Source: an uncultured Collinsella sp.
GTDB taxonomy: Bacteria > Actinomycetota > Coriobacteriia > Coriobacteriales > Coriobacteriaceae
Length of the DNA stretch: 33,792 nt
Assembly: GCA_949287065.1 (NCBI GenBank)
Contig: CASEEV010000020.1
Span: 1 to 33,792 of the forward strand
Direction: 5' to 3'
Each line of letters begins with the position of its first letter. The stretch's first letter is position 1. The position numbers and the translations under genes were made by a program. The notes under the pieces were generated by a model, which did not search any database, was not told the DNA's origin, and worked only from the letters and a program-made list of their open reading frames with translations. Positions 15,573-33,792 of the stretch are shown piece by piece.

Positions 15573-15649
15573 GCGCCGTTACCTCAGCTGGATAGAGGGA
15601 CTGACTACGAATCAGTACGTCACAGGTTCGAATCCTGTACGGCGCACCA
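15573..15649 (+). tRNA. tRNA-Arg (anticodon ACG)
   Basis: A full cloverleaf of 77 nt with encoded CCA: acceptor stem GCGCCGT/ACGGCGC (7 bp), D arm CCTC...GAGG, anticodon stem ACTGA/TCAGT with loop CTACGAA (ACG at 15607-15609, read as ICG for CGN codons), and T arm ACAGG-TTCGAAT-CCTGT. A promoter precedes it and a terminator follows. A second, partial copy of its 3' end lies 200 bp downstream, beyond a structured repeat element. Confidence 0.97.
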
Positions 15650-15661
15650 GCTAAAAGTGCA

Positions 15662-15692
15662 AGCCCGGATCTCTCAGAGATTCGGGCTTTTT
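15662..15692 (+). terminator. Terminator of tRNA-Arg(ACG)
   Basis: AGCCCGGATCT (15662-15672) pairs with AGATTCGGGCT (15678-15688, one G-T pair), followed by TTTT. A diverged second copy occurs at 15860-15891. Confidence 0.85.
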
Positions 15693-15710: not shown

Positions 15711-15840
15711 GTACAGGATTCGAACCTTACTGGAGGCGCGGAGCTGAGGAAACGCGCGAGCGTTTTCCAGCGCAGCGCGCAAGGGGCCGGAGGCCCCGCA
15801 GCGAAGGCGGATGGCGCCAGCCATGCGCCGAATCCTGTAC
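15711..15840 (+). repeat. tRNA-associated structured element, copy 1 (behind tRNA-Arg)
   Basis: The element starts with an inverted copy of the tRNA-Arg T arm (GTACAGGATTCGAACC, 15711-15726) and ends by joining the direct T-arm 3' half (CGAATCCTGTAC, 15829-15840), so its ends form a perfect 12-bp closing stem. Between them lies a core shared with 21731-21850: AGGCGCGGAGCTGAG, hairpin 1 with an 11-bp stem, one bulged A and a GCGA loop (about 15742-15769), AGCGCAGCGCGCAAGG, hairpin 2 (GGGGCC/GGCCCC), GCAGCG, and hairpin 3 (ATGGC/GCCAT capped by GCCA, with a G-G mismatch below). Stems co-vary between the two copies. It has no coding capacity that I can support. A structured RNA, a non-autonomous mobile element, or both are possible. 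Confidence 0.85.
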
Positions 15841-15846
15841 GGCGCA
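15830..15846 (+). pseudogene. Partial copy of tRNA-Arg 3' end
   Basis: GAATCCTGTACGGCGCA repeats 15630-15646 exactly: the 3' half of the T arm and the 3' strand of the acceptor stem. The following CCA is lost (GGCC). The similarity continues through AAAAGTGC and the terminator to about 15900, so the repeated unit is about 70 bp at an offset of about 200 bp. It cannot form a tRNA alone because the 5' part is missing. Confidence 0.85.
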
Positions 15847-15859
15847 GGCCAAAAGTGCG

Positions 15860-15891
15860 AGCCCGGATCTCTTGGAGGTCCGGGCTTTTTG
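15860..15891 (+). terminator. Second copy of the tRNA-Arg terminator
   Basis: AGCCCGGATCT (15860-15870) pairs with AGGTCCGGGCT (15876-15886, one G-T pair) and is followed by TTTTT. It is a diverged duplicate of the terminator at 15662 and would end any transcript through the structured element. Confidence 0.8.
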
Positions 15892-21682: not shown

Positions 21683-21706
21683 AAAAAAGCCCCATCGTTG
21701 GGGCTT
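21683..21706 (-). terminator. Second copy of the tRNA-Leu terminator
   Basis: On the minus strand AAGCCCC, ATCGTT-type loop and GGGGCTT form a 7-bp stem followed by TTTTT. It is a duplicate of 21870-21893, at an offset of exactly 187 bp, differing only in the loop. Confidence 0.8.
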
Positions 21707-21716
21707 AGGCTCAAAA

Positions 21717-21736
21717 TGGTGCGGGCGAAAGGACTT
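21717..21736 (-). pseudogene. Partial copy of tRNA-Leu 3' end, CCA retained
   Basis: On the minus strand AAGTCCTTTCGCCCGCACCA repeats the last 20 nt of tRNA-Leu(CAG) exactly: T-arm 3' half, acceptor 3' strand and CCA. It is joined on its 5' side to the structured element and on its 3' side to a duplicated terminator. The direct repeat unit spans 21669-21736 and 21856-21923 (offset 187 bp, about three differences in 68). Confidence 0.88.
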
Positions 21737-21850
21737 GGCGCCTGCCTTCGGCAGCCGCTCCCGCTGCGGGCCCTGCGGGCCCTTGCGCGCTGCGCTGGCG
21801 AACGCTCCCGCGTTCGCTCAGCTCCGCGCCTTCACCAAGGTTCAAGTCCC
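21731..21850 (-). repeat. tRNA-associated structured element, copy 2 (behind tRNA-Leu)
   Basis: Reading the minus strand, the element starts with an inverted copy of the tRNA-Leu T arm (GGGACTTGAACCTT) and ends in CAAGTCC, giving a 7-bp closing stem. The core matches copy 1: AGGCGCGGAGCTGAG, hairpin 1 (11-bp stem with the same bulged A and a GGGA loop), CCAGCGCAGCGCGCAAGG, hairpin 2 (GGGCCC/GGGCCC, loop GCA), GCAGCG, and hairpin 3 (CTGCC/GGCAG, loop GAA, with the same G-G mismatch below). Like copy 1 it lies downstream of a tRNA and its terminator, in the tRNA's orientation, and upstream of a partial second tRNA 3' end. Confidence 0.85.
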
Positions 21851-21869: not shown

Positions 21870-21893
21870 AAAAAAGCCCCATCCCTGGGGCTT
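21870..21893 (-). terminator. Terminator of tRNA-Leu(CAG)
   Basis: AAGCCCC (21874-21880) pairs with GGGGCTT (21887-21893) around a 6-nt loop; on the minus strand it is followed by a TTTTTT run (21875-21870). It lies about 11 bp past the tRNA CCA end. Confidence 0.85.
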
Positions 21894-21903
21894 AGGCTCA
21901 AAA

Positions 21904-21991
21904 TGGTGCGGGCGAAAGGACTTGAACCTTCATGAGCGTAAAGCTCACATGGACCTGAACCATGCGCGTCTGCCAATTCCGCCACGCCCGC
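21904..21991 (-). tRNA. tRNA-Leu (anticodon CAG)
   Basis: A class II tRNA of 88 nt with encoded CCA: acceptor stem GCGGGCG/CGCCCGC, anticodon stem CATGG/CCATG with loop TTCAGGT (CAG, positions 21957-21955), a long variable arm TGAGC-TTTAC-GCTCA, and T arm with TTCAAGT loop. A promoter lies just upstream and a terminator just downstream. Its 3' end is duplicated 187 bp downstream, beyond a structured repeat. Confidence 0.97.
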
Positions 21992-33730: not shown

Positions 33731-33792
33731 TGGTGCCCCCGGCTGGATTCGAACCAGCGACACCCGCTTTAGGAGAGCGGTGCTCTATCCCC
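33731..33792 (-). tRNA. tRNA-Arg (anticodon CCT), 5' end cut off by the window
   Basis: On the minus strand the visible 62 nt cover the end of the D arm, the anticodon arm CCGCT-CTCCTAA-AGCGG (anticodon CCT at 33773-33771, for AGG codons), the T arm CTGG-TTCGAAT-CCAG, the acceptor 3' strand and an encoded CCA (33733-33731). The 5' acceptor strand lies beyond 33792. Unlike the other two tRNAs here it has no structured repeat behind it. Confidence 0.93.

Follow-up and report, generated by a model that had tools for sequence, protein, structure and literature searches.

The window, that is, the whole stretch of 33,792 nucleotides analysed here, is the entire contig C20 of its own genome (G000; 2.08 Mb, 97 contigs, 45 tRNA genes), which belongs to an uncultured Collinsella sp. 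It contains two copies of the same structured core, one behind tRNA-Arg(ACG) and the other behind tRNA-Leu(CAG), each in the orientation of its tRNA, as a sequence-only reading of this DNA had described. The order of parts given in that reading (tRNA, terminator, inverted T arm, core, direct copy of the tRNA 3' end, second terminator) was recovered in both copies, whose features are the following:

15573..15649, plus strand: tRNA-Arg(ACG), host gene of copy 1 (ARAGORN, Rfam RF00005)
about 15661..15692, plus strand: first (proximal) terminator of tRNA-Arg, read from the sequence and also present in the related genome G001
15711..15727, plus strand: inverted T arm (invT) of tRNA-Arg, GTACAGGATTCGAACCT, a 17-nt exact reverse complement
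15735-15829, plus strand: whole core of the Arg copy
15735..15803, plus strand: type A core of the Arg copy, hairpins P1 and P2 (match to covariance model R1, 93.2 bits)
15808..15825, plus strand: variable hairpin P3 of the Arg copy (ATGGC-GCCA-GCCAT)
15830..15846, plus strand: direct copy of the tRNA-Arg 3' end, GAATCCTGTACGGCGCA, from T-loop position 57 (GAATCC...)
about 15860..15891, plus strand: second (distal) terminator of the Arg locus, a duplicate of the first
21904..21991, minus strand: tRNA-Leu(CAG), host gene of copy 2 (ARAGORN, Rfam RF00005)
about 21870..21893, minus strand: first terminator of tRNA-Leu
21837..21849, minus strand: inverted T arm of tRNA-Leu, GGACTTGAACCTT, 13 nt exact
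21830-21737, minus strand: whole core of the Leu copy
21762..21830, minus strand: type A core of the Leu copy, hairpins P1 and P2 (R1 match, 87.6 bits)
21737..21761, minus strand: variable hairpin P3 of the Leu copy (CTGCC-GAA-GGCAG)
21718..21736, minus strand: direct copy of the tRNA-Leu 3' end, from T-loop position 57 to CCA
about 21683..21706, minus strand: second (distal) terminator of the Leu locus

The flanks had also been called tRNA-specific. This holds for both copies, with the refinement that the Leu match is limited to 13 nt, corresponding to the T loop and part of the stem, so that it is chiefly the T loop and the inner stem that are specific to the tRNA. Folded as DNA, the Arg and Leu copies have z-scores of -5.5 and -4.5, respectively; the minimum-energy fold includes a long outer stem in the Arg copy but not in the Leu copy. 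The search for such inverted matches, carried out upstream of the 45 tRNA genes of the genome, retrieved no comparable repeats, the longest inverted match being 8 nt. Considering the recurrence of the core, the inverted matches of 17 and 13 nt compared with 8 nt or less upstream, and the folding z-scores, the arrangement is not a product of chance. At the end of the window (33734-33792, minus strand), a tRNA-Arg gene is cut by the contig end. Contig C80 (L243) starts with a matching terminator and a complete tRNA-Arg(CCT), and the two contigs are therefore probably adjacent.

Across G000, blastn retrieved the core about a dozen times, and each copy read has its own tRNA ahead of it and its own matching flanks. 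The covariance model R1, built from 36 copies and with places kept at E-values up to 1, detected 22 places in this genome. The best 20 are located behind tRNA genes or in arrays continuing from them, and the worst two (E about 0.5, noise level) are not behind a tRNA and lack the anatomy of the element. This search also revealed a second core type, type B (GGCGCGAGCGTCAAGC...). The tRNA genes followed by a full element number at least 17 out of 45 (Arg-ACG, Leu-CAG, Leu-TAA, Leu-CAA, Val-TAC, Thr-TGT, Gln-TTG, Glu-TTC, Ser-TGA, Ser-CGA, Ser-GCT, Lys-TTT, Lys-CTT, Phe, Ala-TGC, Gly-CCC and Gly-TCC), and the copy set of G000 is one of the larger ones. At Arg-CCG, the inverted T arm is present and the core is absent. 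Tandem arrays at tRNA-Thr(TGT) (contigs C26 and C48; L009, L010) and at tRNA-Ala(TGC) (contigs C54 and C92; L215, L209) run off the contig ends. This indicates that the elements break the assembly and that true copy numbers exceed the count.

The element is not limited to this genome. By blastn, it was detected in 17 of 40 relatives, while the R1 model detected it in 48 of the 61 sampled Coriobacteriaceae genomes (Collinsella, Enorma and others), with up to 15 copies per genome. Named carriers among the matches listed are Collinsella aerofaciens, C. tanakaei, C. ihumii, C. massiliensis, C. phocaeensis, Collinsella sp. and Enorma massiliensis. In 150 genomes of the order, scores were confined to Coriobacteriaceae and to a single genome of another family (G110), where the full anatomy, with a third core type, is present at two tRNAs (Glu-TTC and Arg-CCG) and no further tRNA 3'-end duplications were found. 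Duplicated tRNA 3' ends were found at none of the 45 tRNAs examined in G006, a member of the family without any model match. Since G006 has none and G110 has exactly the two copies found by the model, architecture and core go together. The matches listed for an 18-base core pattern were mostly chance ones outside Coriobacteriaceae, and the four examined there had neither tRNA nor core architecture. The core search proposed in the sequence-only reading was thus positive, in G000 as well as in its relatives, with many copies behind tRNA genes with matching T-arm flanks. Local gene conversion between the two copies of the window, which that reading had named as a contrary outcome, is rejected, given the presence of the element at 17 or more tRNAs of G000 and in several genera.

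We parsed 85 distinct copies for their anatomy. An intact tRNA is located upstream of 74 of them and, in first units, the distance between the tRNA end and the core start is 65-91 nt, with three outliers (143, 248 and 249 nt). The other 11 correspond to contig edges (some unresolved), tRNA-Sec-like genes, a split tRNA or tRNA remnant, a prophage boundary and a displacement by IS110. With copies at tRNA loci and exceptions of these kinds, a core residing mainly away from tRNA genes, the second contrary outcome, is likewise rejected. The elements in L029, L194 and L311 lie behind tRNA-Sec-looking genes that ARAGORN, with the settings used, did not report, and the one in L088 lies behind a tRNA remnant. 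In C. phocaeensis (L121:1417-2520), an IS110-family transposase gene (Pfam Transposase_20, DEDD_Tnp_IS110) is found between tRNA-Ser(GCT) and its element.

The orientation of the element is that of the tRNA in every case. The inverted T arm, with a length of 10 to 21 nt, shares 13.9 of 17 positions with its own tRNA, compared with 12.1 in permuted pairs (maximum 12.4, 300 shuffles), and it tracks T-loop variants such as TTCAAGT, TTCGAGT, TTCGACT and TTCGATT. The direct copy is present in 70 of the 74 copies and starts at R57 in nearly all, which means that the core takes the place of all sequence 5' of the C56^R57 step. The junction had correctly been placed in the T loop, and it can now be sharpened to this step. 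In the arrays measured, 72-78 nt separate R57 from the inverted T arm, and the array unit, of about 175 nt, has room only for the tRNA end, the terminator and the core. Some arrays contain identical units, and some have shortened last units. Composite cores, in which type B-like P1 and P2 are followed by a second P1-like hairpin, were found in L012:1737-1990, in the second unit of L387 and in L309; they look as if one core had joined another. Beyond the arrays in L013, L207 and L387 there are other short repeats, for example GCGCAAAAACG...GATACGGG and GCGCAACGTCTCGGCTTGGGAGA-like sequences, and short repeats are likewise found just past the arrays at L208/L209, L216 and L388.

The distribution of core types bears on whether the element moves. 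Cores at different tRNAs of one genome have a similarity of 0.843 (0 of 1000 permutations as high), compared with 0.799 when the tRNA is the same but the genera differ (577 of 1000 permutations as high) and 0.801 for unrelated pairs, so that cores follow the genome and not the tRNA. For type B, G000 and G001 give 13-14 matches and the other relatives 0-1; this core type has spread to about ten tRNAs. Even within one genus, the tRNAs occupied and the core types vary between genomes. The orthologous Arg-ACG site has an element in G000, G001 and G010 but none in G002, G003 and others; at Gly-GCC, G000 lacks an element that G001 has; and at Gly-CCC the core is of type A in G000 and of type B in G001. 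In the mixed array L394, the tRNA-derived segments are 93 and 87% identical and the cores 69%, and in the mixed array L387 the corresponding values are 75% and 49%. Concerted evolution could raise within-genome similarity too. Nevertheless, the empty orthologues, the replacement of cores and the mixed arrays indicate that concerted evolution alone is not sufficient. Gain and loss, core swaps and the spread of type B support a mobile DNA element tethered to tRNA genes. This was one of the two readings offered from the sequence; the other, a regulatory RNA co-transcribed with tRNAs, is disfavoured on evidence given below.

At Arg-ACG of G010, the inverted T arm has only the general T-arm consensus, without Arg-specific flanks, suggesting that it may arrive with the core and be corrected locally later. 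An inverted T arm of this general kind is also what would be expected before correction if the host itself copied the element with no dedicated enzyme, through template switching at quasi-palindromes, gene conversion and unequal crossing over, with templated repair keeping the inverted T arm complementary to the T arm. Host-driven copying agrees with the variable length of the inverted T arm and with the failure to find a dedicated enzyme in G000, and the identical units and shortened last units of the arrays resemble the outcome of unequal crossing over and deletion. However, it explains neither the right junction at R57 nor the 72-78 nt length of the tRNA-derived segment, and it accounts neither for the absence of copies elsewhere in the genome nor for how a new tRNA is reached with little shared sequence beyond the T arm. 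We consider this explanation unlikely.

Among the genes of G000 searched, no recombinase was linked to the element. The recombinases of this genome are limited to two full-length Xer-type tyrosine recombinases and one degraded integrase, and no Y1 transposase was detected in it. The degraded integrase, of phage type, lies just upstream of tRNA-Gly(CCC) (G000:C27:4717-5512; L284, L014), where a second, partial tRNA-Gly(CCC) then carries the element; another, unrelated integrative element seems to have used this tRNA too. Movement of the core by an HUH (Y1) transposase of the IS200/IS605 or RAYT kind, with the inverted T arm as guide, paired to the T loop of the target, would suit the one-strand hairpin design and the guide-like complementarity of the inverted T arm to the T arm. 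Of 14 element-bearing family genomes examined, 12 have Y1 genes, and neither G006 nor G016, both without the element, has any. Yet the two exceptions, G000 and G001, are both copy-rich, Y1 genes occur without the element in G011, G015, G018 and G026, and, to our knowledge, insertion of the IS200 type gives no duplication of 72-78 nt. In 19 Y1 loci of relatives (mostly RAYT-like), neither cores beyond chance nor T-arm hairpins were found flanking the gene, and the sole real core in this set is the known Arg-ACG copy in L419. Several divergent RAYT-like Y1 genes per genome, with no flanking cores, are found in G010, G012, G005 and G008 (L404-L423). Y1/RAYT was rejected as the linked enzyme, being common in relatives but without flanking cores and absent from G000, and we regard movement by such a transposase as distinctly improbable.

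Hairpins P1 and P2 covary strongly, with 13 pairs changed on both sides (82 cells) and a covariation of 0.255, compared with 0.085 in shuffles (0 of 500 as high). The inverted T arm pairs with the direct copy at 5.47 of 6 pairs, compared with 4.49 when permuted. With its other half it pairs to a short 5' T-stem copy located ahead of the core, and the resulting Pa stem changes with the T stem of the tRNA (CCTT/AAGG at Leu-CAG, CCGC/GCGG at Thr-CGT and ACTC/GAGT at Leu-CAA). From this pairing, we infer that in the folded sense strand the inverted T arm can act as a splint across the split T arm, forming a duplex from which the core protrudes at C56^R57. Loops of the GNA or GNNA type are present in 60 of 79 P2 and 52 of 75 P3 hairpins (112 of 154 together), compared with 3 of 24 tRNA terminators of G000. 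The GNYA class, which is not typical of RNA, is common in P3. In DNA, GNA and GNNA loops form exceptionally stable mini-hairpins (PMC4686876). P1 loops are mostly GNRA, fitting RNA as well as DNA, and the wobble cells (13 G-T compared with 5 A-C) constitute weak strand evidence. Covariation together with DNA-type loops suggests that the element functions as a single strand of DNA in folded form. This strand may also rebuild the T-arm duplex, in analogy to integron attC sites and phage CTX.

The same data bear on the alternative of a structured regulatory RNA or a tRNA 3'-end maturation element, read through from the tRNA. Constant tRNA orientation, helices covarying on that strand, GNRA loops in P1 and a second terminator downstream would all be consistent with it. 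On the other hand, a strong terminator separates the tRNA from the element, orthologous tRNAs often lack the element and whole genomes are without it, cores are interchangeable between tRNAs, and the loops of P2 and P3 are mostly GNA and GNYA rather than GNRA. No Rfam family was found at the gathering score; only the tRNAs were retrieved in the window, and the best sub-threshold match reached 25.7 bits, with 40 needed. An RNA role of this kind is very unlikely.

Comparison of the unit with phages and plasmids by blastn retrieved no match and no larger autonomous relative. A scan of IMG/VR gave nine matches, of which four were examined and one was real, namely a prophage end adjoining tRNA-Lys. 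In this record (L054:6900-7200; IMG/VR UViG_2921084881_000004), a Collinsella-type prophage ends in the tRNA-Lys 3' end and the element lies directly downstream, from which it follows that the phage inserted between the tRNA and a pre-existing element. It is hardly credible that the copies are remnants (attR) of deleted prophages or integrative elements once inserted in tRNA genes: although a T-loop junction with duplicated tRNA 3' ends is typical of tRNA-gene integration, and both the prophage at tRNA-Lys (L054) and the integrase remnant at Gly-CCC (L284) adjoin copies, the same structured core, conserved in several genera, sits at about 20 different tRNAs and comes without phage genes, tandem units have no cargo, the L054 prophage sits between tRNA and existing element, and no phage or plasmid record matches.

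Recognition of attC as a folded single strand has been described for integrons (PMC4792948). The element resembles integron cassettes in its tandem units, each with a one-strand folding site conserved in structure over sequence, and in that new units would join at a fixed platform (attI there, the tRNA T arm here). Unlike integrons, it has no intI gene in G000 and no attC R box with an AAC/GTT crossover, the junction being C56^R57 of the T loop; moreover, the unit has no ORF, and its platform is any tRNA gene rather than one attI. Phage CTX, an Xer-dependent element, has no integrase of its own, and its single-stranded form is integrated by the host XerC/XerD (PMC4792948). The intact tyrosine recombinases of G000 are both Xer-type, but the target here is the T arm and not dif.

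REPs are scattered and are not known to be tied to tRNA genes. They are short, non-coding repeated palindromes, perhaps mobilised by a single-strand transposase (PMC8266576), and to that extent the element is similar, being also short, repeated, palindromic and non-coding. In contrast to REP/RAYT systems, its copies are found at tRNA loci and not dispersed in intergenic regions, there is no RAYT in G000, and the Y1 genes of relatives have no flanking core. A guide that base-pairs at the cleavage site directs target choice in IS200/IS605. Elements of this family have subterminal secondary structures, and their intermediates are single-stranded (PMC6006769), features similar to those seen or proposed here. 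The element differs from this family in having no transposase gene, a duplication of 72-78 nt and tRNA-only targets. Phages, ICEs and IMEs at tRNA genes cross over in the T loop and restore the tRNA 3' end. Both features are shared by the element; however, it has no integrase and no cargo (the units are short and constant, with no room for genes), and it combines the same core at many different tRNAs with an inverted T arm. It also differs from a MITE of a DDE transposon, since its ends are T-arm sequences that change with the tRNA, with no transposon terminal inverted repeats, and its duplication spans about 72-78 nt with a left end fixed at R57, as opposed to a short constant target duplication.

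Both short palindromic repeats and elements that target tRNA genes are known, each on its own, but we know of no kind with a shared core 3' of many tRNAs, tRNA-matched ends and a fixed T-loop junction. The sequence-only reading had recognised no described family with such a layout, and none was found in Rfam or in the open-access literature searched (tRNA-linked palindromes, Collinsella repeats and integron/tRNA combinations). Compared with this literature, the element looks new by its layout, the mechanism being a proposal.

We judge the chances to be about even that the copies constitute a family of short (about 100 nt), gene-free mobile DNA that lives only behind tRNA genes. Tethering to tRNAs, the R57 junction, tRNA-specific pairing, and the spread and exchange of cores are the steps observed. 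The active form would be the tRNA-sense strand as folded single-stranded DNA, in which the inverted T arm would pair with both split halves of the T arm, so that a T-arm duplex would form and the core would loop out at C56^R57. A trans-acting recombinase or transposase may recognise the T-arm duplex both in the element and in the tRNA gene, and would then join the two at C56^R57. Each insertion would keep the tRNA whole and duplicate 72-78 nt comprising its 3' end and terminator, while tandem arrays would grow, exchange cores and shrink by recombination between the tRNA-derived repeats. More tentatively, and with some doubt, we propose a new class of non-autonomous elements. The T arm would be their landing platform, the folded strand would mimic the T-arm duplex, a trans-acting enzyme (perhaps Xer) would carry out the joining at C56^R57, and the ends would be rewritten at each tRNA, so that the tRNA set might act as a distributed integron.

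The tRNA genes are classic docking sites of phages and genomic islands. Known small repeats scatter or use one fixed site, whereas here a shared core carries tRNA-matched ends and occupies up to a third or more of the tRNA genes of a genome. Its arrays break assemblies and may pass for CRISPR-like or tandem tRNA repeats. The hosts are common human and animal gut bacteria, which makes experiments in cultured Collinsella feasible. If the proposed mechanism is true, these bacteria would harbour a system of single-strand recombination based on the T arm of tRNA genes, and the element would provide a testable model of how target specificity changes at each insertion.
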